From NCBI GenBank assembly GCA_914767715.1, contig OU612072.1, positions 22,816,001-22,880,000 of the forward strand: 64,000 bases of DNA, read 5' to 3'. Positions 8,924-56,428 of the stretch are shown here, one piece after another. A program made the translations under genes and the position numbers. The notes beneath the pieces are model-generated. The model ran no database searches. It saw only the letters and a list, made by a program, of their open reading frames with translations, and was not told the DNA's origin. Origin of the DNA: Membranipora membranacea (Eukaryota > Bryozoa > Gymnolaemata > Cheilostomatida > Membraniporidae). The stretch's first letter is position 1. Each line of letters begins with the position of its first letter.

Positions 8924-8935
<12 letters not shown>

Positions 8936-8995
<60 letters not shown>
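8936..8995. repeat. (CA)n microsatellite
   Basis: About 30 uninterrupted CA units, present only in copy A. The same place in copy B (near 11,880) has only a short CACACGCATACAC remnant, so the tract expanded after the duplication or collapsed in copy B. Confidence 0.95.
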
Positions 8996-9000
<5 letters not shown>

Positions 9001-9396
9001 ATATGAAGTCTCAATTATGAACTACAGGTAAGCAGTAGAAATATTGGTAAATCAGTCAATCAAAATGCAGGATAATTAATAATGATGATAATAAAAATAA
9101 TAATAAAAATGATAAAGTTGAGAAATTCACTCAATCGGTGTGCTTGCTTGTACCTAGTATTTGCATCGCAGAGCCAAAGAGTGATTTGAAGATAGTTCCA
9201 CTGGAACTGGAAATCTTAGCCGTACGATATCATCATAAAGCTGATATTCATTTCATCTATTGGTTCGTTCATCTTCTCTGAGACGTGCAAGAAAAGCTGA
9301 GGTTAATCATCCTGATAATAGCCTCAGTGTGCTTATAGTTAGCAGGTAGCAGTTAGCAGGTAATCATCCAGTGTATTATTTAGTGGGGATCTGAAA

Positions 9397-9479
9397 TCAT
9401 CGTTGGTTGGCAGTCGGCAGCTTCTTCACATAAAATGTCAGCAGGCTGACCCGTTCATTGTTGATCAGTTCAACTCCCT
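9397..9479 (-). CDS. Caspase terminal exon, copy A
   Basis: This 83-bp exon follows a CTTTCACAG acceptor and accepts phase 1. It encodes the tail beginning EGVELINNERVSLLTFYVKK and a TGA stop, and its protein is the same as that of copy B (12,232-12,150). A possible polyadenylation signal (AATAAA on the minus strand) lies near 8,700. The exon completes the alternative C-terminus. Confidence 0.65.
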
Positions 9480-12400
9480 CTGTGAAAGAAAAGCACAACA
9501 TACTGATAATGTAAGATAAGATAATTCTCTTCTAAAGAATAACTTCCATTGACATTTCATTAAACTTGATATTCTGACCCCCCTGTGTATCGAGAGTTGC
9601 AGAAAAATGTAAAGATGGTTCAGTAAGCAAAGCATGTTTACCCATATTCCAGAGTCCTGGCTTTGGGTTCCATGATAGCTGCAATCAAGTATGTATGGAA
9701 AATTATAGTTCTCTCACATATATTTTGCATATCTATGGAAAAATAGAGCTCATAGCTATTGCAAGAGTCGAATAAAAAGTTGTATTCATACCGCTATAAA
9801 CTAGTTCAGTCACAGCAGGATTTGGAGATACGGGATGAGTGAGTTCATGAGGATGTTCTGTTCTCATATTAACTCCTGGTGACAGATAGAGCCTCCTCTC
9901 ATTAGTGAATGTACTGATTGTAACAGGAAGCTGTCCTACGCCTTCCTTAGGAGCCTCCTCTCTCACTAGGGTTTGAATCTACAACCAAACAGGATGTTTT
10001 ACTAGGTCAGGTAATACTTTGAGGCGGTGGACAATACCCTGAACCTAGTAGCAGTCTCTGATGTATTGAAAGCTGGTGGTATCTTAAACACTTGATTGGA
10101 GGTAATCTTATCTGATGAAAGAAGATTTTAACCAAGACAAAAATATCACAATATCACAAACTATTCCCCAAAAAACAAATTTGTATTGACAGTGCACAAA
10201 TGTAAAAATAAATTTGGATTTTTTCACATAATTATCTCTCGAACTGGTATATACTGTGCCTGAGCTTAATCAGACAGCAAGTGTAAAACCAGTATCAGGT
10301 ATGTGCAATAAGGAAAACAGTCTTACCCTTTGTGGAAAAGAAACATTAAAAACCAACAAACATACCATTTTACTGAGTTCTTCAGCGTGTTTTGATCCTG
10401 CTTGCTTGTAGAAGGTTGCGACCAAAGCACGAATGAACAAAGATCCTTTGTTCCTGAATCTCCATGCAACATAATCTATCAACATTTATCATGGGATTTA
10501 CAATTGAACATAGTATATGGGTTCACTGTGGAAAACGTTGGTTGTGTTGTGCAACTTTGACATTTCATATGTTTGCCTCTAGCCTTTGAAATATGGTGAA
10601 GTTGATAGGTTTTCCCTAAGTGCTGGTCCATTTGCTATGATATGAGGGTCTGTATATCGATATTCGTTAAACTTGGAAATCTCATACCGTGTGGGATAGA
10701 AACTATGGAAGAGTAACAAGGAATCAAATCAAGGGATTGCATTGAGTTGCGGGAGAATCAATTCTTATCGGGTAATTTTCTATGGTTAATCCATTGCTAA
10801 CAACTTTTTAATTGGCTTAAAAATGAAGCAGTCACATTTATAGTTACCTGGAAAGCTTGGGTGGAATACGATAAGATCATCCATACACTGATGGCTATCA
10901 TCTGAAGGTCTTTCTGTGTCTTGTTGTTGCTGCTGTGGTTGTTGTTGTTGTGACGGTTGTTGTTGCTGTTGATGTTGTGGTAGCTGTTGATACTGTCGTT
11001 GCCGTGGCTCTTGTGGTCGTTGTGGGGAGGGTACTGGTGGCACTCTTTTGACTGAACTTGGTACTTGTACATCATGATTGAAGATGATTTGTTTGTTTTT
11101 TCAGTATTTTGTCAAGATCCAGTAAAACATGGAATTATTTATGATACTGGATTACCAATATCACCTCACCAGTTTATGTGATGAACTAGACAAGTTCAGA
11201 TCAAAGATAAATTATCATAGTCAAGCCTGCTATATCAAGCTTCATGTGGGGGAATGACAACCAGCTCTGAGGGCTACAACCCAAAGCAAAATATATTCAT
11301 AAATATGGTCGGATGGTTTTTAGTATCTTGGTTGAAACATGCATGTGCCTAGATCAACAACAGAAAACTCTCTGCCTCAAGGTTGTTAGTTATCGGCGGT
11401 GATCAGGGAGAAATTTTAGAGAATTCCCATAATAATGAGTTTAGATACTTTGGCAGAGCTCCAACAAATCGAACAAATTGAAAAAATTATTTGTGGATAA
11501 GTGAGAATTTAGGAGATCAATTTATTGGTTTCTATTGCTGACTGCGTCAAGTCCTGCAATTAGACTGGTGATTTTAATTGAGGATTTTGAAAGTTAAAGT
11601 GAGTTTTAAAAAATTACTTCAAAGTTCGAGAGGACAAAGTCATCTACAGTTTATTTATAAACGCTAATATTTGTTATAATAAGTAATAATCTATGACAAT
11701 CAAACACATTTCTAAAGAGTTATGCAGTACAAGCACAAGTCCAGTTGAAGGATTGTCAAATGATGCATTTGGATAAAAGGACTATCATAAAACAACAGGG
11801 GTAATGCCTTGGTCTTATACAGAATAACAGGATACCCATTAGGTGTTTTTCCTGTTACCATAGAAATGCTAAGAGTTCACACACGCATACACATATGAAG
11901 TCTCAATTATGAACTACAGGTGAGCAGTAGAAATATTGGTAAATCAGTCAATCAAATTACAGCATAATTAATAATGATGATAATAAAAATAATAATAAAA
12001 ATGATAAAGTTAAGTCATTTCATCTATTGGTTCGTTCATCTTCTCTGAGACGTGCAAGAAAAGCTGAGGTTAGTCATCCTGATAATAGCCTCAGTGTGCT
12101 TATAGTTAGCAGGTAATCATCCAGTGTATCATTTAGTGGGGATCTGAAATCATCGTTGGTTGGCAGTCGGCAGCTTTTTCACATAAAATGTCAGCAGGCT
12201 GACCCGTTCATTGTTGATCAGTTCAACTCCCTCTGTGAAAGAAAAGCACAACATACTGATAATGTAAGATAAGATAATTCTCTTCTACAGAATAACTTCC
12301 ATTGACATTTCATTAAACTTGATATTCTGACCCCCCCCCCCTGTGTACCGAGAGTTGCAGAAAAATGTAAAGATAGTTCAATGAGCAAAACATGTTTACC

Positions 12401-15400
12401 CATATTCCAGGGTCCTGGCTTTGGGTTCCATGATAGCTGCAATCAAGTATATATGGAAAATTATAGTTCTCTCACATATATTTTGCATATCTATGTAAAA
12501 ATAGAGCTCATAGCTATTGCAAGAGTCAAATAAAAAGTTGTATTCATACCGCTATAAACTAGTTCAGTCACAGCAGGATTTGGAGATACGGGATGAGTGA
12601 GTTCATGAGGATGTTCTGTTCTCATATTAACTCCTGGTGACAGATAGAGCCTCCTCTCATTAGTGAATGTACTGATTGTAACAGGAAGCTGTCCTACGCC
12701 TTCCTTAGGAGCCTCCTCTCTCACTATGGTTTGAATCTACAACCAAACAGGATGTTTTATTATGTCAGGTAATAATTTGAGGCGGTGGATAAATAATTTT
12801 CATCAAGAGGACAATACCCTGAACCTAGTAGCAGTCTCCAATGTATTGAAAGCTGGTGGTATCTTAAACACTTGATTGGAGGTAATCTTATCTGATGAAA
12901 GGAGATTTTAAACAAGACAAAAATATCACAATATCACAAACTATTCCCCAAAAAACAAATTTATATTGACAGTGCACAAATATAAAAATAAATTTGGATT
13001 TTTTCAAATAATTATTTCTCGGACTGGTATAATATACTGTGCCCGAGTTTAATCAGACAGCAAGTGTAAAACCAGTATCAGGTATGTGCAATAAGGAAAA
13101 CAGTCTTACCCTTTGTGGAAAAGAAACATTAAAAACCAATAGACATACCATTTTACTGAGTTCTTCAGCGTGTTTTGATCCTGCTTGCTTGTAGAAGGTT
13201 GCGACTAAAGCACGAATGAACAAAGATCCTTTGGTCCTGAATCTCCATGAAACATAATCTATCAAAATTTATCATGGGATGTACAATTGAACATAGTATA
13301 TGGGTTCACTGTGGAAAACGTTGGTTGTGTTGTGCAACTTTGACATTTCATATGTTTGCCTCTAGCCTTTGAAATATGGTGAAGTTGATAGGTTTTCCCT
13401 AAGTGCTGGTCCATTTGCTATGATATGAGGGTCTTGCTGTATATCGATATTCGTGAAACTTTGAAATCTCATACCATGTGGGATAGAAACTATGGAAGAG
13501 TAACAAGGAATCAAATCAAGGGATTGCATGGAGTTGCGGGAGAATCAATTCTTATCGGGTAATTTTCTATGGTTAATCCATTTTATTTGGCTTAAAGATG
13601 AAGCAGTTACATTTATAGTTACCTGGAAAGCTTGGGTGGAATACGATAAGATCATCCATACACTGATGGCTATCATCTGGAGGTCTTTCTGTTTCTTGTT
13701 GTTGCTGCTGTGGTTGTTGTTGTTGTTCTTGTGACGGTTCTTGTTGTTGTGACGGTTGTTGTTGCTGTTGATACTGTCGTTGCCGTGGCTCTTGCGGTCG
13801 TTGTGGGGAGGGTATTGGTGGCACTCTTTTGACTGAACTTGGTACTTGTACATCTTCTTCTGGACCGGAAGCTGTTTTGAGAAAACAAAGGTAATCAAAT
13901 CCAGCCCCAAATTCTGATTTGTCTTTGTTAGCTCTGTAATATTGTCATTGAAAAATAATCAGCCTAAGACTGGTCCATGTCAAAACTGCACAAATAATGT
14001 TTTTAGGGAACAGAATGAACATGAAATAATATTTACCAGCTGTCTTTGTTTCCACTTCATCTAGTACACATCTCTGCTGTGATTCAGGAGATGCAGTGGA
14101 TCCTTCATCAGTTCCTGTCTGGATTGTCGACGAATCGTCATTCTTCATTTTTCTCACTTAAAAACAAATTTTTTTTTTACTTTCTGGCTTGTGAAATTAG
14201 GATTATGCTTCCATAAAGTGATTAATAATTAATGCACTGCGAGATTTCAGATATTCAACATTGCAATTACAGAAATCATGGCATACTTTCATTGCAAATC
14301 TCAATAATCTATTATGGATATCAATCAACAGATCTTCACACAAAATAGATGCCAGTGTTAAAAGTGCCACACCAAAGCTTACACACCTCCTGAGCAGGCC
14401 TGAAGGATCACCATCTTAGGTTTTCCCCTCATTGCAGGAAAGTTTTGTGATGAGAGCAGTCTGTATATGTCCACTAGTTTGAGGGTTCCATCTTTGGTTG
14501 AGATTGTACCATAACCACCATGACTCATCAACACCAGTGCAAACATTCCCAGGTTAGCATGTACAGATGTATCAGTGTCTCTATCCACATACTGTGTCTC
14601 TTTGTGTATCGCCTCAACCACCTCCTATATCAAGAACAAATGGAGAAGAAATATTGCATTACCATCAGTAGATGTCCCGTTTTGGTTGATTCGGTTGATT
14701 TGGTTGACTTTTTGCATAGTCTAGATTCAAATACTTTATTATGATAATTCATGAAATAGTCAGTTGATATTTTTAAAGTAATTTTTTTCTTTTACTGTAT
14801 GCAAAAAAGTTTATCGTCAAGCATTGAAGGGAGTAACCTTCAAAGGGAGGGGTCCAGTTTGGGGCTGAGATGTAGTCACGTTTTAATTTTGATTAAGTTG
14901 TGAGGTCATATATTTTGATATCGCTCTTTCAAAGAAAGATTGCCGGCTGCAATGTTTTAAGACACCAAAATTTGGAGATAAGCCCTTGCTACAGGGTACA
15001 TAAATTTACATCTCATTAGTTGTTGGATGATATGATTACCTTGGCACTCCATACTCTATTACCGCTCAGCTCGCTTACAATGAATCCAAACTGTCTGAAC
15101 ATTTCACCCATGTTTTCGTAGTCATACTGAGATCCTTCTCTGTCCTGTTCATTTATGGGGAATCTTATATTGATTATGAGAGCTCTTCCTCGAGAAGCAG
15201 TCATAGTATAAACCTTAAAACGGACAAAAAATTTCAATTTTTTTTAAATTCAATGTCCACTGATATGGAACCGTTCGCCTCAGACCGACTTGATCAAGGT
15301 GCTAATCGCTTAAGAATGCCAGTCAGCATTTTCAATCCTTACACAGACAAAAGCTTATGTCTCTGAACTCATTATGGTAGGTTATAGCATCAATCTTCAG

Positions 15401-18400
15401 TAGATAAGAAGACATATTACTAGGACTAATTAGTTTGTCTTAACATCACAATTACCTTATCTTTGTGAGGTGTAGAATACAAGGTGGTCTGGAAGTTTGG
15501 CAGCATGCTGATGCGTGCTTGAGTTTCATCATTCATGATTCTTCTGATTTCATCAGTTGATGGGTCCAACTTCTTCACATATTGAACTAGTGCTTCATGA
15601 GCAGAGTCAGAGAGTTTGAGGCCTTTTATGGAGTGAGAAAAAATATTCGTATTAATGACGATCAAGTTATGGACTTCATACTGAATATGAGCAGTGAGAA
15701 TTTCATCAAACTCTATGAGTGAAATATATTCACCACTTGTTGGATAGTAGCACAAGGGGATAATCAAAGTCATAAAGAAGATCAACCAGAAACATCATTT
15801 CACACAATTCCACCAATCTGTGATATTTCAATCAAAAACTATTGGACTCGCAAACTATAATGTGACTCAGCTAGCAGTAAATATAATGAACACCGTGGAG
15901 AAAATAATTCAACAATTTAATCTTACATGGTGTCTTGAGTACAGCTGGAACATCATGTTCTGATCCACATGATACAGTGTCTGCTGTCGGCTGTTGATTG
16001 CTTGATGGAGCGCATATCGCCTGGAAGTCTAACAATGCAGGGTTAGGCTTTTCACGAATGAGGCAATGGGGACAAGGAATGTCATAACCTATCTTTGTAG
16101 CTGGCCAGGCAAGTCGCGCTTCTGCTGAAAGCTTTTCAAGTAGGTTGGAGAAAGTCTTCCAACATTTCAAAATCGTTGAGATAGACCCTTCAACTCTGAT
16201 GGTGACTTTTTGTGCCTCTTTCTCGTTGATAAGGTGAGTATCGAACTCAGCTGCGTCAGACCGCTTACTACTTTTCGTTTTAGCTGAGGCACCGTTTCCA
16301 TAGGGGAAGACTTGATAGCTACTAGCCATGACTTGAAGAAATTTCACAGTTAGCTGATGGAAAGCGTAGTTAGGTACTTTCAACCCAACAAAGTTCAAAC
16401 AGGCACCGAGCTGAATCTGAGCTGTGTGAAGAGAAAATGTATGTTCGGGCATGAAATATGGCATCAAGTAGCAACCATCCTGATTGTTGACAACAGTCGG
16501 GCCATGCAGGAGCTTGAATTTCTTCATAAGTGCAACTGCGATTTCAAAGGGTATCTTCACAGAGTTGGACAGGCACATTTCCAGATCTCTCTTGCTAATC
16601 ATACCATTTCTCAGATAGCTGCTTCCTGTAGACACATTGACAGCAGAGGGCTGTACGACTAAATCACTGATCATGGTATGATCATAGAGTGATCCTATGA
16701 GCTCTGACACAGCTTCTATATTGTGAAATATTATATCAGCTAACTCACAGTCATTTGGTGACTCCTCACCAACATCATCTTCATCTGAATCAGACTCATC
16801 TTCAGCATCTGAATCAGACTCAGGCGCTGGATACCACAATATTTGACCTGATCGCTTCATGAAGTCGAGAACAGTCCCAGGGTGCGTCAGAGAAGAATAA
16901 ATCTGGTCATATGTGAGAAAGCTGTCAGTATCTCCAGTAAAAGGCTCTAGCCACACAGACGGGATGAAGCACATAGAGTTCTTCACTCGCCTGATAAGAC
17001 ACTCTTCTAAACGCTTGAGGTCTTCTGAATAGTCTCCTGCATCAACAGAAAATCCTAGTGAGAATACGTTATTCGCACTGAACATAGACAGAGTTTTGCT
17101 GCCATCAGAGGATACAGCCAGGTCGCAGAATTCATTTCCATCATCAAGAAGTTCACTTGTTAACTGTTTAACAGTATTTCTAAAATCCCTGCACAGTTCC
17201 TCATAAAGCTCTTTTTTGTCCACATATTTGTCAAGGTGAGTGAATATGAGGATAGGCTCTTGTATTCTATCAGTTATCTTGATCAGGTGCGAAAGCCAAT
17301 CAAAGGCCACCCTTCTGGTGGCCTCCCGCAGTCCCCTTTCTTCTCTTAGGGTCTGGAACTCCGGCATATTCACAACAATCACTGGTACGCAATCCTTTCG
17401 CACTGTCAGGTGATACCCGTAATGGTAGACTTCGTCGCCACCAAAGTCGATCACCTTGACGCTTATTGCTTCTGATTCAGGACCTTTCAGCTGGACTTCC
17501 TGAAAACCGAAAACTTTGGTTTTTTGAACTTTAGGATCATCTGAAGTTAGAGGCTTGAAGTTCTGCTGCATGGCACAGAGAAGAGACGACTTTCCTGCCT
17601 CCTTTCTACCAACGAGGGCGATTGACGAAAGTGTTATTTGGACTTTACCTCTTTCCAAGTCATTGTAGTAGGCTTTAATGGCACCCAAACCTCCTTCACA
17701 CACAACATAGGGAGGCTCGATAAGGCTGTAGCATTCATCACATTCGAGCTGTGTTACGTTCAGCACAGATGGATGAAGACGGCAGAGAGAAGAGTTATCA
17801 CTGAGGTACAGGTCCCTCATGGAGACTAGTTCACCGATCCATTCAGGTAGTTGTTTGATGCTGTTTCTCTGCAAGCCAAGCCATGTTAGCTTTCTCATGT
17901 TTCTCATACTGAAAAAAAGGTAAAGAGGATGCTACAATTGACCTGCTTCAGATCTAATATCTTGCTATTAATATATTCACGACACACTTTCTTTCAGCTT
18001 GCCAACAGCTGTTTTGAGAGTGGTAGACATCATGACATGTTCAAACTAGTAATGCGGCTTAGACAATGTATGAAGTTCACTTTCTATCCTGGCATCACAG
18101 TGCTGACAAAAAAACATAGGATAATACAACAAAGTGCCAATCAAACCTTCACCTGCTTTATGTGTTGCAATAGATAGAATATCGATAGGATAATATAAAC
18201 TTGATGTGGCCCACTGACACAAAGCTATTCTATCTTTGCATAAGGATATGCCCACAAAAAAGGATGAATGATAATTGAATAACATATCCTGTTTATCTAA
18301 TTTGACTGATTGGCTTCTAAATCTTGTGACCTGGTCTTCATAACCAGTTTAATAACTGCTATTCATTCAATGGTTCTGACTATACAATGCATAAGCCAAA

Positions 18401-45400: not shown

Positions 45401-48400
45401 TCATTTCATTGCTTTCAACTTCAATCGCAACATGGAAGTTGTCAAACTACGTTTAGAGATGGGGCAACTCCCATATTATTTGACGTTTCGAAGTCATCAT
45501 GTGTAATTTAGTAAAAACTGTGAATAAATCATTCCGAGTTTAACTCCAGATCACATTTTAAAGGATAATGACTTCAATGCTTGCTGCTCAGGTGTTAATC
45601 TTACACCTGTCAAACTTTGCAAACTTTCAAACTTTGATGATTATATTATGTGATCAAGTCAACCCAGGGATTAAATGTTGATCTCTTGGTGGGAAAAGGT
45701 TTGATACTACTGTTCCATCCATTCTGTCGTCACCGAAGTCTACTTATATTTTGACAAATCCTTGATTTTGTTTGCACTGCGAAGATACTCATGTTAGTAT
45801 CTCCTGAGCCTGATTTTCTGACAACATTTACAACTTTTTGATGGGGTCGTAATTTATAATTTGTAATTTTACTTTGCTTGACGATACTATAGTATAGCTT
45901 CTGAACGGAGGCAATTTTCATTGATTAAATAATCCAACAAACAAACTGAACATACCCTGAAGGTAACTCGACCAGATCACACCCACTCATATTCAGTTTC
46001 TCTAGTCTTGTAAGTCCTGATAGCTTATCACTCAACTGATCATCTGTACTCAGATTGTTGCGACCGACATTCAGCTTCTTCAGTGAAACCATCTTTGAAA
46101 TGCTGCAAGGTACCAACAAAACATTGAAATTTGTTCATAACAGAGAGTGGTGATATCTGAATTCGACATTGATAATAGGATGTTGAAGGTTGAAAGTCCA
46201 ATGCGCCACTTTTACATTATGGTTGTCAAGCTCTGATGTGAAATCATCAAGCTGTTTGATCGAGGCGTCGACTGTCCCAATGTGCGTCTTGTAAGCAAAC
46301 TGTGATGGCTCTATTACCTCTGTCAATTTGGATCTCATTTACTTTATTATAACCTCATCAGTAAGCTTGTCAGGGTGAAACAATATTGACACTGACCAAT
46401 GGTCTTTGTGTTTGGGAGGGCTACCTTGGAGCTGAGTGGGCGCTCGGAGTGACAGGCTGAACTCACACAGCTATCTACACCTGTTGTCTGTTTGCCAATT
46501 TAACCGTTGAGCACAGTATTTCAACCTACACTAAATTGTAGCAACCAGCCCATAGATAGCTGTCGTTTATGACTCATTGAATAATACGCTATAGCAGAGA
46601 GGAGTTTAGAAACTCAAAATCTCAGGACGTTGCCTCTACCATCTGTTCAAATACTGGAGTCTGATATGCATTTGGAGCCTCATAATCTGGGGGAAATCCC
46701 ATCTCATGTATAAGTTGGATGGTGAGAAGTCAACATCATCTGAAGACTTCCAGACATGGATCTCAGTGGAGGGTGAAGAAAATGTTTGCTTGCCTCTCAA
46801 TGACATATTGAATTTGATGCAATCTACATCGGAAATTCCAGTTAAATGCAAGAGAGCCCAAATCAAACACAAAGACTATCAGCTAGTGTCAATATTATTT
46901 TACCTTGGAACCTCTCTACCTGGGATTCTCTCTTGGGTAGGAGATCGGGCGAGGTAGCCGGCTATCAAGTGAAGGGAAAAGGGCAAACTTCTCAAGACCG
47001 GCAAACTGCATAAAACTCAATCTAGGTACAAATTTAATCATAGTCAAGGACTGGGGTAAGTTGGGGAGCATCCAATGAAAAAGTTATAAAGCATGATAAA
47101 ATATCTACCAGAGGAAATCAACTTAAGTCATCAGTGGCTATGCTAAATGAGTGAAACAAATTAGCACCAAGTAACAACACCAAAACAGGAAGGCTAAGCC
47201 AACCGATTACCAAATCATTGACTTTTTTAATCATGTTCAAAATTTCAGACCAGGATCTGTGAATACCGTTATTAAAAATTTTAGCACCAGATCCTTTACA
47301 ATTTTACACATCAATATGCGTAGTCTAATCAACAAAATGCCTTTGTTTGAAGTACTGCTAGCTCAACTCAATGTTCATTTTTCATGTATTGTCATTTCAG
47401 AGACTTGGTTTTCACAAAATGAATTTTTAGAGAAGTTTTCACTATATGGCTATAAAATGTTTTGTAGATCTAGATTTCATGGTGCTGGCGGTTGAATTGC
47501 TATGTATGTATCAGAGGAGTTTGAGGCTAGTGTGACGGATGTTCGGTTGTCTGGAGCGGAGGCTATGGTGGTTCGTATGGTTTATTCTGGCCGCCCAGTC
47601 TGCTTTGTGCTGGCAGTCTATCGCACCCCTTCAGTGGGGCCGGCGATTTTCCTGGAGGACTGGGAGGCGCTGCTGCCTTCGCTCCCTATCAACTATATAG
47701 TTGTTGGTGATCTTAATTTTGACTTAAATCCCTCAAATGAAACTGATAACTTCACCCTAGACTATATGAGAAATATGAGCATGAATGGCTTCTTTAATAT
47801 TATTGAGTCGCCAACACGGTGCCGCCGCACGAAAGACAGCATTTTGGATCATATTCTGGTCAACAACACCAGTAATGAAATTTTGTCATGTACAATTAAA
47901 ACTGACATGATAGCTGACCATTTTCCAGTTATTAGCTCCATTGCTATTCCAAACACATGGAAGCAAAACCAAGCTAACCAAATTTTAATTACTAAGCTTG
48001 ATCCAAACACACTTTACAAGAAAGTTAATGACCCGAAGTATGACAGGGAGTGCTCAATAGCAGTAATCCAAATGACGCCTTTGAAATTTTTACAAATACT
48101 CTACAGAAATTAGAAGCTGAGTCATCAACAACTAAAACTAAAAAGCTTGTAAAAAGCCTTGGATGACGCTCAAAATCTTCAAATTGATTCAACAGCGAGA
48201 AAAACTTGCCCGAAAATTAAAGGATGAGCCTTTTAACAGTAAACTTCTTCAAAAATATTCTAAGATAAAAAATCTGATATGTAATATCATCAAAGATGTA
48301 AAAAATAGAATTTTACAATACTGAAATTGAAAATGTAAAATCAAATCAAATTGAGAAATGGGCTTTTGTAAATCGGCTTTTAAACAGAAAAGCAGACAAG

Positions 48401-51400: not shown

Positions 51401-54400
51401 TAAATTATTATTTCTGTTGAGCTGAAGTTCCTTGCAACATACCACAGCTTTTACAAATAAATCTGTTTTAGTTTGTACATAGTTGTTACTCCGGTTCCGA
51501 TTTTTTACCTGAAAGATATGTTGCGCCTTATTGTGTTGAGCCTGTGTGAAATGTGGAATTTTTTTAGAAAAAGGTTGCCCACCCATGCTCTAGCTAGATC
51601 AATATTGATCTATTTGCTTAAATTCGGAGTTGTTTTTCCTCCAATGGACAGGGGAGCAACTCCAAATACAGACAAATGAATCGTATATATGTTCACTCTG
51701 ACCAGTGAACCATGAGTGAACTAAGCTATGATCTGTCCAACTGAGCCGAATAGTTTTGCTCCTTTTCGGTGGTCTCTGATCTTATCAGTTCTAGTTCTAA
51801 ACTATACAAAAACATTTCAGGTAATTTTTAAATCCACAAAATAAGCACAGTTTAGATCCTGAACAGTACCAAATTGAACTTGGTAATCAGGCTTTAGAGA
51901 CAAAAAATAGCACCAAATTTCTCGGCATTCACATTTGTCTTACATAGTCAAATAAGGGGCTTTGGCTGTCTCGACAACAAAAATACATAAAACAGGTGTT
52001 TACAAGAAAATTATGGCTGTAATGTTTTCTTTTTTTGCAAGATTTGATGATGTATCAACACGACAAAAAAGGTCATAATAAGTAATGTTCTTCTTTTAAG
52101 GTGCTGTCTGTACACTTGTTAAATCCATTTTATCAACCCAAGACAGAAATGTTGTATAGCTACTATAGGTTTCTCAACAGAGCAATGCAAAAAAACTGTT
52201 GCATTTTAGCAGTCACTACCCATCACTAAAACAGGGAAATAATAAACCTAAATGACTTTCAGCATATATGATGACTGTCTTTGACAAAAATTTAGAAACA
52301 CTTTTTATTTGTTGGGCAATTGAACGCATGACTAGTTCTCAAAATTAGAGGACCCTGGGAAATCATTTGATAGTTTTAAGTGATGACACGACTCCCAATC
52401 AATTTAATATTTATATTCATGTTTGTTTTGCTGCTTGTGGGTTTTAGTGATTTTTAAAGATAAACTTTCATATACCTTGACCAAAATGATGATAACAGTA
52501 GGATAAAGATGAGTATACTGAGGTATCAGCCAATGAGTGTCATTACCTTTCAGGTATCTTAGTCAGCTGACAGCCTCCCAGGTACAGTATCTCCAGATTA
52601 GTTAGTGCTGACAATGTCTGACTCAGCTTATAGTCTCTACTGAGATCGTTACCCTCTAAGTGTAGATCCTTCAGCGATGTCATCTCAGCAATGCTGGAGA
52701 AAAGAAAATATAATCTTCACATTATTCACTGTCTTATACACAATTTTTTTGCGGTCAGTTCAGAGTCACTCTGAATTCTCCCCCAGACAGAATCTTCCTA
52801 AAACGGAGTGTATTTTCAAGTTTGATCCATTATTCGCTTGTATTAAGTTTGAACTGAAAGGAGAGATACTCTGAATGCAGGAAAATGGACCAAACTTGGT
52901 TATTCGTCTTACATAGTCAAATAAGGGGCTTTGGCTGACTCGACAACAAAAATACATAAAACAGGTGTTTACAAAAAAAATAATGCTGTAATGTTTTCTT
53001 TTTTTGCAAGACTTGATGATGTATGAACACGACAAAAAAAGTCATAATAAGTAATGTTCTTCTTTTAAGGTGCTGTCTGTACACTTGTTAAATCCATTTT
53101 ATCAACCAATGACAGAAATGTTGTATAGCTACTATAGGTTTCTCAACAGAGCAATGCAAAAAAAACTGTTGCGTTTTAGCATTCACTACCCAACACTAAA
53201 ACAGGGAAATAAAAAAACCTAAATAATTTTCAGCATAATTATATGATGACTGTCTTTGACAAAAATTTAGGAACACTTTTTATTTGTCGGGCAATTTAAT
53301 GCATGACTAGTTCTCAAAATTAGAGGATCATGAGAAATCATTTGACAGTTTTAAGTGATGACACGACTCCCAATCAATTTAATATTTATATTCATGTTTG
53401 TTTTGCTGCTTGTGGGTTTTAGTGATTTTTAAAGATAAACTTTCATATACCTTGACCTAAATGATGATAACGGTAGGATAAAGATGAGGATTCAGAGGTA
53501 TCAGCCAATGAGTGTCATTACCTTTTAGGAATCTCAGTCAGCTGACAGAATCTCAGGTTCAGTATCTCCAGATTAGTTAGTGCTGACAATGTCTGACCCA
53601 GCTGATCATCTCTACTTAGATCGTTACCGTATAAGTCCAGCTCCTTCAGCGATGTCATCTTAGCAATGCTGCAGAGAAAGAAATATAATCTTCACATAAT
53701 TCCCTGTTTTATACAATTATTTTTCGGATAGCCCAGAGTTATTCTGATTTCTTCGCCTCACAGGAACTCCCTAAAATGCAGTGTCTTCTAAGATCAAGTG
53801 TGATCCATTATTCTCTTGTATTAAGTTTGAACTGAAAGGAGAGATACTCTGAATGCAGGAAAATGGACCAAACTTGGTGATTCGTCTTACAGAGTAAAAT
53901 AAGGGGCTTTGGCTGCCTCGACAACAAAAGTACATAAAACAGGTGTTTACAAAAGAATTAAGGCTGTAATGTTTTCTTTTTTTTTTGCAAGATTTGATGA
54001 TGTATCAACACGACAAAAAAGGTCATAATAAGTAATGTGCTTCTTTTAAGGTGCTGTCTGTACACTTGTTAAATCCATTTCATCAACCAAAGACAGAAAT
54101 GTTGTATAGCTACTATAGATTTCTCAACAGAGCAATGCAAAAAAGCTGTTGCATATTAGCGTTCTCTACCCAACACTAAAACAGAGACAACAAAAACCTA
54201 AATATCCGTCAGTGTTAATGATGACTGTCCTCGACGAAAATTGAAAATCACTTCTCATTTGTTGGGCAATTAAACGCATGACTAAATCTAAAAAAAGTAG
54301 AGAACCCTGAGAAATCATTGGACAGTTTTAAGTGATAAGATGACTCCCAATCAATTTAACATTCTGACATACCTTTTTTTTGCTGCATACAGAAATTTTG

Positions 54401-56428
54401 AACTATGGAACAGCACTGCATTAATACTGCTCCTAATGTACATGGTGATGTTCGTGAGCTGTAATGACATGAGTCATCACCGTTTTAAAAATCTATCTAT
54501 GATCATTTTTTAATATCTCACTATTTATTATAGATCAATTTCACATAATAATCAGCTTGAATACAAATACATAATCACCCTAACATACCTCATTATATGT
54601 GATGGTACTCTGTAAATTTTGAATAATTATCAAAACACAAAACACAGGACTATCACTTACCTTACTGAGGCCTGACTGGCGTATAGTAATACAATTAAGT
54701 TGGCCAATAATCTATACCATTCAGATTATCTTAAATTGTCATAATTATTGTAGCAAGTTATGCCATTAGCTTTATAGGCTCAGTTTATAATTTTACTGAT
54801 ATTGTTATATACAACATTAAGACAACGTAAATGGCCCACACAGAATATGTACCATCGTTAGTTTAATAGGAGGTTACAGATGGTCTGTGTTATATAATAT
54901 TTATAGTAATTAGTATATAATGTGCCGACATGGTAATCTTACATCCTGCTTATATTGATGATATATTTACCTGTCAGGCATCTTAGTCAGATTACAGGCC
55001 AACAGAGTGAGAGATACCAGATCTGCAGTTAGTGTGGATAGAGTCTGTTTCAGCTCACCACCTTGATGCCCGTAAACCGCTAGATACATCAGTGATGTCA
55101 TCTCTGATAATCTAAAACACACCAATACAGATATACATACTTCAAGTATGTCAATCGCATTAGAGCCTACACTATAACCTCACATCAATTTACCTACCCT
55201 TGGAGAATGGTGACTAACATGGTTTGATCACACTCTGCATGCAAACTTGGTACTGATATTAACAGTAAAGTCAGCATTATTCTGAAGGGGGAATATGTGA
55301 GAAATTATTTTGGATCTATAAAATTAAAATCAGTTTGATAAAAATCTGAGCTCACTAACCTCAGGCTTTTGAGGCTATTTTCTTGCATATCACGCAGCAA
55401 CAGATATTTCACTGATTTAGATAGCCTCTCTGATAACTCAGGTGCGTCATATATAAAGATTAAAGCTAGCTGACCAGCTGAAGCTGTCTCTCTCTCCAGC
55501 TCTACTAGAGTCAGATATCTATGGCTTACAGATAATCGCATTGAGGTTTGTTGCCGGCCATGAGGATCATCCCAGTTACTGTCACCCTGCTCCTCCCATC
55601 CTACCAAGTATCCTGTAATAATCAGAAGCACAATAATAAAATGGTCATGAATGAACCTTTGAAATAAAGGGAATATTATTATTATGTTTTAAGTGAAGAT
55701 TCTCAACATTCATTATCTAAATGTTGTAAAAAGTTTTAAATCTGGAACAAATACTACATGCATTATACACACATGGCATCAGCTAATGATTCCATCCCAC
55801 AAAGTATAGTTATATTATTTGCTGAAGAGATTATTCTTGTGAAAATAGTTTGCAATGAGCAACGCAATTTACTACCAAAATTGATGTTCAATTTGGAGTT
55901 GTATGCTCTTGTTGTATCAACAGTCGACCGCTAACTCCCTCTTAAAAAAAGGATTTTGACTGTTAGCCTATTTTTGCAATAAGCAGGAGTGAAGGTTGAA
56001 ATTAAGACCAAGACTGTGTGCACTGTTTTTTGCCGATATCCTCCCGGTATCATCTCATATCAATAATATGATGGTTCATAGCATCACAGTGAAGCTCTTC
56101 ATAGTTGTTAGATCATAATGTTGCTGATGCAGTCACACATCCTCGAGATTCTAGTTGTTGTGGAACTGGTATACAGTAGATGAAACCTCAGTCCGTAGAC
56201 TGTCAAAAAAACTAGGTCAGTACCCTAAACTTTTTTGGACTTCGAACCAACTAATCAGCGAAAGCAATGAACATTACGGACACCTTATGAGGCCATGTAC
56301 ACAATTTGATATGCTGTATTCACCCTCAGAACTCACTTTTGTCTGTGCTAAGATTTTCCTCTTCTCTGCCTTGCTCCATGATTGAAAGCTGCATGTTGTG
56401 GGATTCACAGGACAGCTTTGGCAGCAAT
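9397..56428 (-). CDS. LRR-Roc-COR-caspase fusion gene (whole locus)
   Basis: Exons in order of transcription: 56428-56337, 55612-55360, 55111-54971, 53668-53522, 52693-52547, 46102-45956, 38287-38141, 17908-15927, 15622-15456, 15213-15040, 14624-14387, 14156-14037, 13871-13623, 13258-13149, 12736-12550, 12232-12150. All junctions are GT-AG and keep one frame; the total from the first listed exon is 1,460 codons plus stop. The first usable ATG is at 56394, giving about 1,449 residues, though an exon further upstream is possible. The inferred role is a cytosolic LRR sensor with a GTPase module and a caspase effector. A second set of terminal exons (10475-10366, 9978-9792, 9479-9397) is an alternative 3' end. 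The model is built from sequence alone, so LRR exon use and the start are the least certain parts. Confidence 0.78.
9792..9978 (-). CDS. Caspase p10 second exon, copy A
   Basis: This 187-bp exon accepts phase 0 and ends in phase 1. It encodes the second half of the small caspase subunit, including GQLPVTISTFTNERRLYLSP, which matches the family pattern of a short strand, S-T-x-x-(K/R)-L-Y-L and a PG turn. It differs from the copy B exon by one residue near its start (IQTL here, IQTI there). The splice acceptor and donor are both intact. Confidence 0.75.
10366..10475 (-). CDS. Caspase p10 first exon, copy A (AWR variant)
   Basis: This 110-bp exon accepts phase 1 and ends in phase 0 at a GTATGT donor. 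It encodes YVAWRFRNKGSLFIRALVAT and the following helix to EELSKM, the start of the small subunit. In copy B the same motif reads YVSWRFRTKG. The S-W-R triad of caspases lines the S1/S3 substrate pockets, so the S-to-A and T-to-N changes are functionally placed. Open frame and splice sites are preserved. Confidence 0.75.
10853..11070 (-). pseudogene. Glutamine-linker exon, copy A, without acceptor
   Basis: It encodes the same glutamine-rich linker and DDLIVFHPSFPG p10 start as copy B, with an intact GTAACT donor. The duplication boundary falls inside the exon, however. The first residues and the AG acceptor present in copy B (CAAAACAG before 13871) are replaced by sequence with no acceptor. 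Unless an upstream cryptic acceptor is used, this exon cannot be spliced in. The distal p10 exons could still be joined to the copy B linker exon, which ends in the same phase. Confidence 0.65.
12150..12232 (-). CDS. Caspase terminal exon, copy B
   Basis: Accepts phase 1 after CTTTCACAG and encodes 27 codons including TGA. Joining it straight to the 187-bp p10 exon gives an open frame. If a small 37-bp open segment between them (12,436-12,400) were included, the frame would hit a stop at once, so I leave that segment out. A possible AATAAA on the minus strand lies near 11,655. Confidence 0.68.
12550..12736 (-). CDS. Caspase p10 second exon, copy B
   Basis: This 187-bp exon encodes IQTIVREEAPKEGVGQLPVT and then the STFTNERRLYLSPG core of the small subunit. 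It ends ELVYS plus one base at a GTATGA donor. In animal caspases this part forms the last beta strands of the p10 and the dimer interface. The codon phases match the exons on both sides. Confidence 0.8.
13149..13258 (-). CDS. Caspase p10 first exon, copy B (SWR)
   Basis: Encodes YVSWRFRTKGSLFIRALVAT and the helix to EELSKM. The Y-x-S-W-R motif and the following KGS-x-F-I-x-A-L are hallmarks of the caspase small subunit. The exon accepts phase 1: the last G of the linker exon plus AT forms an Asp codon, giving PSFPD-YVSWR. It ends in phase 0 at a GTATGT donor. Confidence 0.85.
13623..13871 (-). CDS. Caspase interdomain linker exon, glutamine-rich
   Basis: This 249-bp exon encodes ASGPEEDVQVPSSVKRVPP, then a tract of about 35 residues dominated by Gln with Pro and Glu, then ERPPDDSHQCMDDLIVFHPS, the first strand of the p10. 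It lies where caspases carry the p20/p10 activation linker. Three acidic sites (PEED, PPDD, CMDD) could serve as Asp cleavage sites. The poly-Gln part is encoded by CAA/CAG repeats and differs in length between the two duplicate copies. Confidence 0.8.
14037..14156 (-). CDS. Caspase linker exon following the active-site Cys
   Basis: This 120-bp exon accepts phase 1, giving the junction QACSG-VRKMKND. It continues with a Ser/Thr/Glu-rich stretch (DDSSTIQTGTDEGSTASPES) and ends KTA plus one base. This is the expected end of p20, where a flexible loop follows the catalytic pentapeptide. Confidence 0.75.
14387..14624 (-). CDS. Caspase p20 exon with catalytic His and Cys
   Basis: This 238-bp exon encodes EVVEAIHKETQYVDRDTD and continues with MFALVLMSHGGYGTIS and KPKMVILQACSG. 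The SHGxxG motif holds the catalytic His and QACSG the catalytic Cys (family pattern QACxG), so both residues of the dyad are present. It joins the previous exon in phase 0 and the next in phase 1. Note that MSHGG replaces the more usual LSHGE. Confidence 0.9.
15040..15213 (-). CDS. Caspase p20 N-terminal exon
   Basis: This 174-bp exon, phase 0 at both ends, encodes SRGRALIINIRFPINEQD and then REGSQYDYENMGEMFRQFGF. These match the first beta strand and helix of caspases: RGxALIIN, with the Arg that binds the P1 Asp, then R-x-G-x-x-x-D...L/M..F...GF. The usual INN is INI here. Confidence 0.9.
15456..15622 (-). CDS. Linker exon between Roc-COR and caspase
   Basis: This 167-bp exon accepts phase 1 from the Roc-COR exon, giving TPC-LKLSDSAHEALVQYV. 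It is predicted to be helical (KKLDPSTDEIRRIMNDETQA), ends HKDK, and joins the p20 exon in phase 0. It sits where a prodomain would be, but I cannot recognise a CARD, DED or death domain in about 55 residues. Its phase match on both sides is the key evidence that the ROCO part and the caspase are one gene. Confidence 0.75.
15927..17908 (-). CDS. Large exon: last LRRs, Roc GTPase and COR domain
   Basis: This 1,982-bp exon is open throughout. Numbering from its first Met, residues 5-60 are two LRRs (LTWLGLQRNSIKQLPEWIGE). Residues about 90-310 are a Roc domain with P-loop GRKEAGKSS (100-108), G3 motif DFGG (154-157) and G4 THLDK (223-227); as I recall, LRRK2 also carries THLD at this place. Residues about 310-520 are COR, with GQILWYP near 354-360, broken by an acidic insert (DSDAEDESDSDEDD, 365-378). 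A CPHC motif lies near the C-terminal end. Roc-COR pairs act as GTP-regulated dimers. The exon accepts phase 2 after TTTTTTTCAG and donates phase 1 at GTAAGA. Confidence 0.93.
18795..18990. repeat. Two-copy tandem repeat of about 106 bp
   Basis: Units beginning near 18,795 and 18,901 share GTACCCGAGT, a GTTTTGTT(T/G)ACTTA(G/A)GTTGT block and the segment CGTGGAGAACTCAAA. The units are diverged and non-coding, and lie in the intron upstream of the Roc exon. Confidence 0.6.
19333..19655. mobile_element. Putative MITE with imperfect terminal inverted repeats
   Basis: Left segment 19,349-19,400 (CATACTGAGTACCTAGTGGG, then TAATAACTAAGC and GTCATGTGAC) is mirrored by 19,576-19,630 on the other strand. 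The arms are 50-70 bp with scattered mismatches and a spacer of about 180 bp. I did not find a clear target duplication. Confidence 0.55.
21011..22529 (+). pseudogene. LINE ORF1 remnant (frameshifted)
   Basis: Two open stretches on the same strand (21,011-21,520 and 21,847-22,530) are separated by a region of stops. The first includes INLDAARYEIIKKVLPVKIK. The second ends in a compact alpha/beta block (FRVKFINSTQLLTAINQRGL) resembling the domain that precedes zinc knuckles in retroelement gag/ORF1 proteins. Both lie directly upstream of an endonuclease start in the LINE ORF2, so they are read as ORF1 of the same element, broken by frameshifts. The assignment to ORF1 rests mainly on position. 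Confidence 0.6.
22508..22692 (+). pseudogene. LINE ORF2 endonuclease, 5' part
   Basis: The frame reads IAHLNIRGLAGKLDEV and continues to MIRNDRP. This is the N-terminus of an APE-type endonuclease of CR1/Jockey-like LINEs (family pattern NIRS/GL..K). It contains stops near 22,610-22,625 and is cut at 22,692 by a DNA transposon. The coding sense resumes at 24,894 with (DRP)ENAGGGLLCYIK. Confidence 0.8.
22693..24893. mobile_element. hAT-like non-autonomous transposon inside the LINE
   Basis: The 2,201-bp insertion is flanked by a perfect 8-bp target duplication, GACAGACC (22,685-22,692 and 24,894-24,901). Its terminal inverted repeats start CACAGAGTTATTATAT (left) and CATAGAGTTATTATAT (right). 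Similarity extends about 190 bp inward, including TTAATTATTGCGAAATCCAT and ATACGTATTGGG. A subterminal block is repeated directly near 22,760 and 22,940. No transposase frame is visible. The 8-bp duplication and the CA end suggest hAT, though the P superfamily also makes 8-bp duplications. Confidence 0.88.
24307..24326. repeat. Poly-G tract
   Basis: About 20 consecutive Gs inside the hAT-like element, followed by TGTGTG. The run could form a G-quadruplex, and its length may be unreliable in the assembly. Confidence 0.9.
24894..26780 (+). pseudogene. LINE ORF2 endonuclease (3' part) and reverse transcriptase
   Basis: After the transposon the frame continues ENAGGGLLCYIK. A frameshift near 25,045 leads into a 400-codon open stretch: LIYRPPSKP, IMGDFNVNLND (endonuclease core), LNDHFLIY, then the RT start (RVTPIFKGGD, NFRPISVLP). 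A stop at 26,251 and further frame changes are followed by FLDFKKAFDCVDHAIL, APQGSITAPTLFSIFINDL and AYTDDTIF. The catalytic box is TDD instead of ADD, so the copy is dead. The order EN then RT and the motifs fit the CR1/L2/Jockey group. Confidence 0.9.
26793..26889. repeat. 28-bp direct repeat followed by a small palindrome
   Basis: The 28-bp block CACCTACATGAAAATGACCC...AATC occurs at 26,793-26,820 and again at 26,824-26,851. A perfect hairpin, GTCACATAC-ACT-GTATGTGAC, follows at 26,869-26,889. It sits exactly where the LINE reverse transcriptase reading is lost. Confidence 0.75.
27000..28130. other. Intronic stretch, no supported gene
   Basis: AT-rich sequence with short, non-homologous frames only. 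Confidence 0.45.
28184..28815 (-). CDS. Small acidic-protein gene or transposase N-terminus (three exons)
   Basis: Proposed exons are 28815-28726 (ATG start, MASSRTRIHESGALNECSGG, ending DDENE at a perfect GTGAGT donor), 28500-28391 (VAVSESEEDSQVGEVDEMDN, ending DADDSDFD at GTGAGT) and 28266-28184 (GSPPRKVVIVGAGHGASGRA, then a stop). Exons 2 and 3 join in phase 1. Exon 1 to exon 2 has a phase conflict at the obvious sites, so one boundary is wrong. An acidic DSDFD stretch before SPPRK is seen at the N-termini of piggyBac-type transposases and some nuclear proteins. No core domain is present. It lies inside a giant intron, in the same direction as the host gene. Confidence 0.4.
28367..28382. 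repeat. Poly-G tract
   Basis: A run of about 14 Gs in the intron just downstream (minus strand) of the GTGAGT donor at 28,390. Confidence 0.9.
28930..31360. other. Intronic stretch with short repeats only
   Basis: Two similar motifs (GCGTATATATCCGTCATTGG near 29,010 and GCGTATATATACGTCATTAG near 29,057) lie 5' of the small acidic gene. GGTCATTTTCAT is repeated near 30,578-30,625. No coding region is supported. Confidence 0.5.
31370..32600 (+). mobile_element. BEL/Pao retrotransposon remnant
   Basis: Translated pieces in changing frames give a gag region (RLGDVGQLNYS, later HPETKHSLIDCKRFSSLS with a CxxC-like knuckle). Reverse transcriptase pieces follow: LVGDIC*MYNSI, RVNTGDRPAAVISA and STYVDDMVDSAPENL. 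The segment LSRRIVLEQTIKTYDPL then PLPEQLRTQWMT is typical of the region after RT in BEL/Pao. Many stops and frameshifts show it is dead. The YVDD box is intact. Confidence 0.8.
32690..33620 (+). mobile_element. Ty1/copia retrotransposon remnant (integrase)
   Basis: Pieces include a KQWHIDLGHNMNYEDIVKLA pre-integrase motif (the H..GH part of the zinc site), HSDIRGPLGPPSKQGHRYFI, VKQLHTDNGGEYTSKDF, then HSPYQNGKAERF. These supply the D, D and E positions of the integrase core. A KPDMRKIHTFNAKCTYN block typical of copia follows. Stops and a frameshift at about 33,215 show it is inactive. I could not define LTRs with confidence. Confidence 0.85.
33630..34330. other. Possible copia 3' flank
   Basis: A purine tract (GAAAGGTGGGGGTG near 33,714) could be a polypurine tract. 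GTTGCAACCTC elements in both orientations lie near 33,970 and 34,080. No repeat pair long enough to call LTRs was found. Confidence 0.3.
34330..35310. repeat. Two diverged copies of the LRR-intron repeat unit
   Basis: The segments 34,330-34,640 and 34,930-35,310 share an order of motifs with 51,990-52,400, 52,960-53,370 and 53,960-54,330: GATGATG.ATCAACAC, TATCAACCA.AGACAG, GAGCAATGCA.AAAA and CATTGCCC.ACACTAAA. They are paralogous copies of the same intron, which shows that the whole exon-plus-intron unit was duplicated. Confidence 0.75.
34746..34807 (-). pseudogene. Degenerate LRR exon
   Basis: After a CTGTAG acceptor the frame reads IAEMTSLRKLYLHGNNLSTY, the same start as the functional LRR exons. 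Alignment then fails: the second repeat and the GT donor are missing. It appears to be a decayed member of the LRR exon array. Confidence 0.7.
35489..35660. repeat. Imperfect inverted repeat, about 68-bp arms
   Basis: The left arm (35,489-35,556) and right arm (35,592-35,660) are inverse copies with few differences (for example CTACGCCATCACTA against its inverse). The loop is about 35 nt. This is a foldback element or a long hairpin. Confidence 0.8.
35661..37203. other. Intronic stretch, no supported gene
   Basis: Overlapping short frames on both strands near 36,910-37,140 have no homology I can see. Confidence 0.4.
37204..39422. repeat. Segmental duplication, copy 1 (with LRR exon)
   Basis: Direct paralogue of 45,536-47,182. 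Copy 1 contains about 500 bp (37,610-38,107) absent from copy 2. Both hold a 147-bp LRR exon. The right half is also related to 44,219-45,190. Confidence 0.88.
38141..38287 (-). CDS. LRR exon 6 of the ROCO-caspase gene
   Basis: This 147-bp exon, phase 2 at both ends, encodes ISKMVSLKELNVSENNLSTD and then two-repeat continuation LSGLTRLEELYMRGCHLVEL, ending PSG. It follows a TGCAG acceptor and ends at GTATGTT. Spliced to the Roc exon it gives PSG-MRNMRKLTWLGL, a natural LRR continuation. The LxxLxLxxN pattern places it in the canonical LRR group. Confidence 0.82.
39742..40023 (+). CDS. Hypothetical + strand reading frame
   Basis: A 93-codon open stretch follows a CTCTGCAG that could be an acceptor. 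It encodes RTHAELTVVNNTNSLFMN and later SVIAYACTACIICYEKP before a stop. No family is recognised, and its strand is opposite to the host gene. It may be chance. Confidence 0.2.
   Translation: MRTHAELTVVNNTNSLFMNHTTVTIYDTYTEAILQQFMLHFISNCDGLKSFYVANIKSVIAYACTACIICYEKPIKKTREASFTSISIIIINL
41375..41640. repeat. About 85-bp tandem repeat, three copies
   Basis: Units start near 41,375, 41,460 and 41,546 with CTGYCGT(Y)GCCCAGTGCAGC-like sequence and share ATTCTRTRTYC and GGCCTCT. A related CTGTTAGCCAAGTG motif recurs to about 41,745. No conserved frame. Confidence 0.65.
42466..42850. repeat. 34-bp minisatellite
   Basis: About nine regular copies of a 34-bp unit (GTAACGAGTACGACGACTCT, then ATCTGAGGGGGAAG) run from about 42,550 to 42,850. 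More diverged units with GAGTACGCCGACT precede them from 42,466. Unit variation is mostly A/G at one position and small length changes, as expected of slippage and unequal exchange. Every unit carries the CGACGACT core. Confidence 0.92.
43880..44230 (-). pseudogene. LINE reverse transcriptase fragment
   Basis: Minus-strand pieces in shifting frames read ALDLLEAF, then GAPQGTKLGPILWLLYSNDL and IKYAEDTMFYT. These are the LDFxKAFD, PQGTxLGPILF and YADDT blocks of a non-LTR reverse transcriptase, with YAED replacing YADD. It abuts the third copy of the segmental duplication at 44,219. Confidence 0.75.
44219..45190. repeat. Segmental duplication, copy 3 (no LRR exon)
   Basis: Matches 38,440-39,370 and 46,230-47,130 in the same orientation but is more diverged, and it stops before the LRR exon. 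It lies 350 bp from copy 2. Confidence 0.8.
45536..47182. repeat. Segmental duplication, copy 2 (with LRR exon)
   Basis: Aligns with 37,204-39,422 at high identity from GAGTTTAACTCCAGATC to AAGTAACAACACC. Similarity ends exactly where a truncated LINE begins, so the LINE insertion or a rearrangement cut this copy. Confidence 0.88.
45956..46102 (-). CDS. LRR exon 5 of the ROCO-caspase gene
   Basis: This 147-bp exon is phase 2 to phase 2. It encodes ISKMVSLKKLNVGRNNLSTD and LSGLTRLEKLNMSGCDLVEL, ending PSG. It is a paralogue of the exon at 38,141-38,287, with differences concentrated in the variable LRR positions (for example NVGRN against NVSEN, NMSGCD against YMRGCH). Intact splice sites. 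Confidence 0.82.
47230..49378 (+). pseudogene. Second LINE (endonuclease and reverse transcriptase), degenerate
   Basis: Endonuclease pieces: FTILHINMRSLINKMP, VISETWFSQNEF, VVGDLNFDLNP and ILDHILVNN. RT pieces: DCNNYRPISILTAISKV, IDSQFGFSEKRN, DFSKAFDTINHDIL, GVPQGCVLSPILFLIFINDF and LFADNTNIF (ADN instead of ADD). Several stops and frameshifts interrupt it. The 3' end is lost near 49,378. It belongs to a CR1/Jockey-like family different from the LINE at 21-26.8 kb. Confidence 0.9.
49740..50010. repeat. Two-copy repeat of about 135 bp
   Basis: AAGCCTAAGTGCCTGGGCAA near 49,766 and AAGCCTTAGTGCCTGGTCAA near 49,900 start related units. These share AAAATCTGCTT.AATAG and the RATGGYTCAAAG motif, followed by a partial third. 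Confidence 0.6.
50036..50120 (+). repeat. tRNA-derived SINE head
   Basis: An A-box-like TAGCTCATTGTGTAGAGCGT and a B box GGGTTCGAGTCT lie at tRNA-like spacing (about 50 bp). The anticodon and acceptor stems do not pair fully, so it is not a functional tRNA gene. Confidence 0.55.
50271..50352. repeat. GC-rich hairpin island 1
   Basis: Short perfect palindromes GGGCGCT-AA-AGCGCCC and ATCGGGC-TGC-GCCCGAT surround a CCTCCCACACCCTCCCCGCC tract, in otherwise AT-rich DNA about 150 bp downstream of the SINE head. Confidence 0.65.
51312..51362. repeat. GC-rich hairpin island 2
   Basis: GAGGGGTGC-CA-GCACCCCTC hairpin followed by CCACACCCACCCTGCCC. It shares the layout (hairpin, then CCCACACCC) with the island at 50,271. 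Confidence 0.6.
52547..52693 (-). CDS. LRR exon 4 of the ROCO-caspase gene
   Basis: This 147-bp exon, phase 2 to phase 2, encodes IAEMTSLKDLHLEGNDLSRD and LSALTNLEILYLGGCQLTKI, ending PER across the junction. CTCCAG acceptor and GTAATG donor. Two LRRs. Confidence 0.85.
53522..53668 (-). CDS. LRR exon 3 of the ROCO-caspase gene
   Basis: This 147-bp exon, phase 2 to phase 2, encodes IAKMTSLKELDLYGNDLSRD and LSALTNLEILNLRFCQLTEI, ending PKR across the junction. CTGCAG acceptor and GTAATG donor. Nearest relative is the exon at 52.6 kb. Confidence 0.85.
54971..55111 (-). CDS. LRR exon 2 of the ROCO-caspase gene
   Basis: This 141-bp exon, phase 2 to phase 2, encodes LSEMTSLMYLAVYGHQGGEL and LTADLVSLTLLACNLTKMPD. 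It is the most diverged of the LRR exons and lies outside the recent tandem array. GTAAAT donor. Confidence 0.8.
55360..55612 (-). CDS. N-terminal exon leading into the LRRs
   Basis: This 253-bp exon accepts phase 1 and ends in phase 2. It encodes YLVGWEEQGDSNWDDPHGRQ, then a region with SVSHRYLTLVELERETASAG, and ends with an LRR-like SLKSLR. The first 60 residues match no domain I know. It could be a capping region or a divergent LRR set. GTTAGT donor. Confidence 0.72.
56337..56428 (-). CDS. Probable first coding exon
   Basis: This 92-bp exon has a CTTCAG acceptor and a GTGAGT donor. The frame that joins the next exon (phase 1) reads LLPKLSCESHNMQLSIMEQG, then REEENLSTDK. Methionines at 56,394 and 56,379 are candidate starts. 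The presence of an acceptor implies at least one more 5' exon, possibly untranslated. A different frame of the same DNA (CCQSCPVNPTTCSF) does not keep phase and is not preferred. Confidence 0.55.

Follow-up and report, generated by a model that had tools for sequence, protein, structure and literature searches.

Does the genome of the bryozoan Membranipora membranacea encode a protein in which a leucine-rich repeat (LRR) sensor, a GTPase switch and a caspase belong to one chain, or do a Roco gene and a caspase gene lie side by side on the same strand? Animal caspases are known to be recruited to sensors through adaptor domains, and the question is raised by a stretch of 64,000 nucleotides, here called the window, in whose coordinates all positions are given. 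A first-pass annotation had described a Roc domain (GRKEAGKSS, DFGG, THLD), a COR domain and a caspase (SHG, QACSG, SWR) in this order on one strand, and motifs, Pfam matches and profile alignment confirm that description. Nine minus-strand exons join in phase from position 17907 to a stop at 12152-12150 and yield 1,102 residues with a single terminal stop; the phases originally assigned to the junctions from COR through the linker to p20 (1, then 0) are correct, and no internal stop interrupts the nine-exon frame. The window holds one copy of Roc-COR and one copy of p20. The sequence itself gives the succession of domains, exon phases that fit one another, a frame free of interruption, and catalytic and Asp-binding residues that are all preserved. 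We consider it probable (about 0.72) that the locus is one animal gene encoding a single-chain death or immune receptor, in which an LRR sensor and a Roc-COR GTPase switch are followed by a short linker and a complete p20/p10 caspase.

The last LRRs, the Roc GTPase, the COR domain and a CPHC...CGSEHDVP element are carried by a single exon (15927-17908, minus strand) with a phase-1 donor, gtaaga, at its end. In the predicted protein the Pfam matches are weak, with Roc (PF08477, residues 96-190, 17338-17622, minus strand) at E = 7.6e-5, LRR_8 at the start of the exon at E = 2.2e-4 and COR-B at E = 0.022, all below the gathering scores. Of the ten sequences formed by the window protein and nine relatives, 9 match Roc, 3 match COR-A and 1 matches COR-B (E ≤ 0.01), and the motif DFGGD is invariant. 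When a profile of the same ten sequences was compared by hhalign with one built from four bacterial Roco proteins, 569 columns from the LRRs through COR could be aligned (E = 2.5e-27, probability 99.8%), and the solved chains of LRRK1 and LRRK2 match the family profile over LRR-Roc. The Roc-COR assignment is therefore firm, because the nine close relatives add family-level Pfam and profile support to the weak Pfam matches of the window protein. A Roc GTPase with a P-loop, followed directly by COR according to motifs, Pfam and hhalign, places the protein among the ROCO proteins, and the LRRs that precede Roc (LRR_8 at the exon start and five upstream LRR exons in phase) place it in the LRR-ROC-COR group.

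The Roc-COR exon ends just past the CPHC...CGSEHDVP element, which we took to be where the Roco core stops. By eye, similar Cys/His elements are found at the C-terminus of P0016 (Streptomyces) and of P0019, two proteins from our searches; hhalign pairs the window exon end with another Cys element of P0016 than the one matched by eye. In many relatives, too, the core closes with an element of the form CPHC ... C..E.DIP.AL..PC (15927-16074 in the window), which resembles a metal-binding unit.

The caspase is spread over several minus-strand exons. The p20 subunit is encoded by a first exon at 15040-15213 (VYTMTASRGRALIIN..., PF00656 E = 8.9e-7 alone) and a second at 14387-14624 that contains SHGGYG and QACSG (PF00656 E = 3.3e-10 alone) and ends in a weak donor, gtgtgt; by eye, a better-looking gtaagc lies four bases further after QACSG and would break the frame with the exons of the present model. 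Two exons placed by in-frame joins follow, one at 14037-14156 within the p20-p10 linker, which can be skipped without loss of frame, and a glutamine-rich one at 13623-13871 that ends with the start of p10 (MDDLIVFHPSFP), so that the linker between the subunits is long, rich in glutamine and furnished with several Asp residues. Pfam and PDB matches identify the p10 exons at 13149-13258 (YVSWRFRTKGS) and at 12550-12736 (the end of the caspase fold, RRLYLSPGV), and the joined frame identifies the last coding exon at 12150-12232, with the stop at 12152-12150. A small candidate exon at about 12436-12400 (AIMEPKARTLEY) was dropped from the gene model since it cannot be joined in phase to the exon that follows. 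The joined caspase exons match Peptidase_C14 at E = 1.2e-32 over profile positions 1-229 of 233, and among solved animal caspases of the PDB the matches reach E = 1.3e-13. Membership in the C14A caspases is indicated by p20 and p10 subunits with SHGGYG and QACSG, by a p20 Arg that aligns with that of 3sir, and by an intact VSWRF in p10. We take the His of SHG and the Cys of QACSG to be catalytic, and the p20 Arg and the Arg of SWR in p10 to bind the substrate Asp.

Whether these two well-defined halves belong to one gene is a matter of the junction between them. The COR donor is in phase 1 and the p20 acceptor in phase 0, a mismatch that requires an intervening exon. An exon at 15456-15622 (minus strand), separated from the Roc-COR exon by 304 bp and placed by in-frame join and coding score, enters in phase 1, leaves in phase 0 and ends in HKDK. 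It ranks first by coding score among 14 candidate in-frame joining exons (at least 30 bp long and at least 60 bp from both ends of the gap). Its score of 3.49 is not exceptional, as 12% of 99 open 165-bp windows reach this value, and agreement of phase at two junctions is, taken alone, weak evidence.

The same arrangement could come from two same-strand neighbours, an LRR-Roc-COR gene and a separate caspase gene about 0.3 kb downstream, whose first exon would begin with an ATG of the open frame 15429-15794. The frame of the linker exon is indeed open upstream to 15794 and includes an in-frame ATG, but the open frame immediately upstream of the linker acceptor scores as intron (-2.64, against 3.49 in the linker exon), and this drop argues against a separate caspase start at that point. 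A polyadenylation-like ATTAAA at 15921, about 6 bases beyond the COR exon, would suit an upstream gene that terminates there; against two genes, it is the sole AATAAA or ATTAAA listed from 15927 to 15213. The COR exon itself ends in a donor and not in a stop, and most of the relatives compared resemble it in this respect at the protein level. We compared 12 Roc-COR relatives (P0001-P0009 and P0012-P0014), leaving out P0013, a fragment without a C-terminus. In 8 of the remaining 11 the last residues of the COR exon would suit a phase-1 donor, that is, a codon xGT followed by A, as judged from the protein and not from DNA. The residues are PCK in P0001, P0002, P0005 and P0014, KCR in P0008, PGM in P0007 and P0012, and TSM, two codons earlier, in P0004; P0014 is only 26% identical, and P0003, P0006 and P0009 lack the pattern. 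This frequency suggests that the COR exon is probably not the last exon and that more coding sequence probably follows it in most relatives. Two neighbouring genes are also what one might suppose from the absence of the fusion in all relatives matched; with both sides considered, we regard this explanation as rather unlikely.

The searches for relatives bear on how far the proposed single gene can be followed outside this species. With the predicted protein, 11 matches were obtained from a protein database that included UniRef, NCBI and EukProt entries and in which matches need shared 5-residue words; nine of these are close (37-44% identity, E = 2e-125 to 3e-170). The first-pass annotation had proposed a search for proteins with both Roc/COR and Peptidase_C14. 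PF00656 is listed in none of the 11 matches and in none of the 17 matches of another search, in which scoring was limited to the 7,999 candidates with the most words in common, and no match has both Roc and PF00656; the close matches look like single exons called as open reading frames on short contigs, which could not show a fusion. Both sets of queries included the exon at about 12436-12400 that was later dropped. The caspase part alone found no relative among 167 candidates at E ≤ 1e-3, and relatives were confirmed neither among 72 pattern matches in GTDB contigs nor among 23 in IMG/VR. The earlier proposal of one LRR-Roc-COR-caspase gene stands as the best reading of the sequence, by its frame, its phases and the rank of its linker exon, but no second species with the fusion occurs among the search matches. 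A EukProt protein, P0019, combines Roc-COR with PF13365 in its precomputed Pfam list. PF13365 is a trypsin-like protease family, and P0019 may represent the same C-terminal slot filled with another protease, and perhaps a second Roco-protease fusion.

The far end of the gene was set too wide in the initial description, which extended it to 9397. The first stop is at 12152-12150, and 9397 is where a duplicated set of the last exons (Q, p10 and tail) stops. The duplicate, which lies in tandem and includes the 3' flank, covers 8126-11073 (minus strand, found by self-comparison), and its p10 reads YVAWRF. This segment repeats 11079-13854 over about 2.9 kb in three blocks that are 93.5-95.6% identical, and the second p10 exon is identical at 186 of 187 positions. 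The second p10 copy is open, with SWR changed to AWR, and could be an alternative p10 or a fragment. One transcript region might thus give alternative products: the fusion, a Roco protein that stops behind COR and a caspase on its own, the p10 copies at 13258-12150 and about 10476-9397 being used as alternative ends. The second copy is open and nearly identical, and exon 14156-14037 can be skipped in frame, both in keeping with alternative products; yet the second copy begins inside the Q exon and therefore has no Q-exon acceptor, and we judge this possibility to be improbable.

The upstream part of the gene consists of LRR exons on the minus strand, recognized by tblastn, self-comparison and in-frame joins. 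They comprise a degenerate exon of 141 bp at 54971-55111 (tblastn E = 1e-6 to other LRR exons) and four of 147 bp: 53522-53668 with two repeats (tblastn and in-frame join), its tandem copy 52547-52693, 45956-46102, and 38141-38287, which is a copy of the preceding one (the last three by tblastn and self-comparison). All five are of phase 2/2, which fits the phase-2 start of the Roc-COR exon, and the joined frame is free of stops. Self-comparison indicates that the exons multiplied through local duplication, two repeats per exon. The cassette exons lie at least 20 kb upstream of the Roc-COR exon, with a LINE in between, which counts against the single gene. For the outer limit of 56428 given previously we found nothing in support; the first supportable LRR exon starts at 55111. 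The architecture of this region bears on a further explanation, that the locus is decayed or misassembled and that its parts, while adjacent, no longer make or never made one protein. One LRR exon (34750-34808, minus strand, tblastn) is truncated to its first half and probably unused, and tandem duplications and LINE-type elements surround the exons. Against this stand 1,102 codons free of stops and frameshifts with intact motifs, a Roc-COR exon that is 40-46% identical to nine relatives over its whole length, and a window that does not include any N. We consider this explanation very improbable.

If the locus is one gene, a mechanism can be proposed. The LRRs would read a ligand or a cell-state signal, the nucleotide state of Roc would alter the pairing of COR domains, and paired chains would bring two caspase zymogens together, so that these become activated by proximity, in the manner of initiator caspases. 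The next step would be a cut in the long Q-rich linker between p20 and p10, with its several Asp residues, and the activated caspase would cleave substrates after Asp. That Roc-COR dimerisation would fire the caspase is plausible. The caspase occupies the position of the kinase in LRRK and of the effector in bacterial Roco proteins, and control by Roc-COR is therefore the natural reading. The bacterial Roco protein of Deyaert et al. 2017 (PMC5714945) is mainly a dimer without nucleotide or with GDP and a monomer with GTP, and the direction of the nucleotide switch therefore cannot be assumed. By analogy, the active state could be the GDP-bound or the empty state, or could depend on pairing of another kind.

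Activation by proximity on a nucleotide-switched sensor that bears LRR or WD repeats is known from CARD/DED initiator caspases, NLR inflammasomes and the Apaf-1 apoptosome. In these systems the sensor and the protease reside on different chains, which death-fold domains bring together, with a STAND ATPase as the switch. The six sequences scanned gave no Pfam match to NACHT or NB-ARC; the predicted switch of the window protein is Roc, and the protein may act in the manner of an NLR or apoptosome sensor but does not belong to them. With human LRRK1/LRRK2, DAPK1 and MFHAS1 it has the Roc-COR core in common, and LRRs with most of them; their known output is a kinase or no enzyme, and not a caspase.

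The closest precedent is bacterial. Kaur et al. 2021 (PMC8195603) describe AP-GTPase-COR proteins that begin with LRRs and end in one of at least 24 domains, among them TIR, caspase and trypsin. The order LRR-Roc-COR-caspase is thus not new to biology, and the first-pass annotation, which knew of no described animal protein with this order, appears to be right for animals: a survey at the level of titles and the openings of abstracts, with subscription literature outside its coverage, returned no animal Roco-caspase, which does not prove absence in print. The window gene has the same order of LRRs, GTPase, COR and effector as these bacterial counter-invader proteins. It differs from them in that it belongs to an animal, is spliced and encodes a p20/p10 caspase whose matches in the PDB are animal caspases. 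Our own scan found a caspase motif in none of 80 bacterial Roco loci; it used a regular expression and not a profile, and covered the best 80 of 541 loci close to four Roco proteins, and therefore does not contradict the caspase-bearing bacterial members of Kaur et al.

Among animals, the placozoan Trichoplax possesses 17 or more ROCO genes, in which Roc-COR is accompanied by CARD, death, TIR, TPR and LRR domains (PMC4104024, accessible portion). Like the window gene, these tie Roco receptors to the death machinery, but through adaptor domains; the domains are of the recruiting kind, and the accessible portion names no caspase domain. Aplysia and sea anemones have TIR-ROCO proteins (PMC9334734, PMC5094078). 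A coral and an amphioxus caspase paper name no Roco-caspase in the passages covered, and the main text of the coral paper does not use "LRR" or any word beginning with "Roc". Brown-algal ROCO genes, proposed as immune receptors, carry their LRRs on shuffled phase-2 cassette exons (PMC11378527, available sections), as does the window gene; the algal exons are of 72 bp with one LRR each in a simple LRR-ROC-COR protein, whereas those of the window are of 147 bp with two LRRs each, and the predicted protein includes a caspase.

A broader interpretation, to which we would give even odds, is that the gene represents an unreported family of animal receptors that act as a one-protein inflammasome. The LRR exons would multiply and diverge at exposed positions and so change what is sensed, the switch would be the Roc GTPase instead of an ATPase, and a true caspase would occupy the C-terminal effector slot, which in bacteria is taken by caspase, TIR or trypsin; with the caspase in that slot of a Roco protein, no CARD or death-domain adaptor would be needed. 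If true, one chain of sensor, Roc-COR switch and caspase would do the work usually shared by sensor, adaptor and caspase. It would also offer a minimal system for how nucleotide-driven pairing of Roco proteins becomes enzyme output, a long-standing question for LRRK2, and it would connect animal cell death with the Roco-effector proteins that serve bacteria as counter-invader systems, through a shared slot or through convergence.

The divergence of the LRR exons was assessed in their duplicated pairs. Between the copies ending at 46102 and 38287, 8 residues differ, 7 of which lie by eye at x positions of LxxLxLxxN-type strands. A test for strong positive selection gave no support: the two recent pairs have a dN/dS of about 1.2, which is not significant (Fisher, P = 0.52 and 0.43), and the four older pairs one of 0.39-0.47. 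For the 46102/38287 pair, more differences fall in the exon than in the 5' flank (12/144 against 6/378, P = 0.0005); the 3' flank is unusable because one copy has extra sequence and the forced alignment reaches only 67%. For the 53668/52693 pair, a comparison of the exon with both flanks yields P = 0.07. Such a contrast between exon and flank could also arise through gene conversion of introns. Two LINE-type elements lie on the plus strand, one at 25003-26831 with endonuclease and reverse transcriptase matches, inside the 20-kb intron before the Roc-COR exon, and one at 47496-48110 with an endonuclease match. Self-comparison also reveals short tandem copies, 88-90% alike, at 42487-42862.
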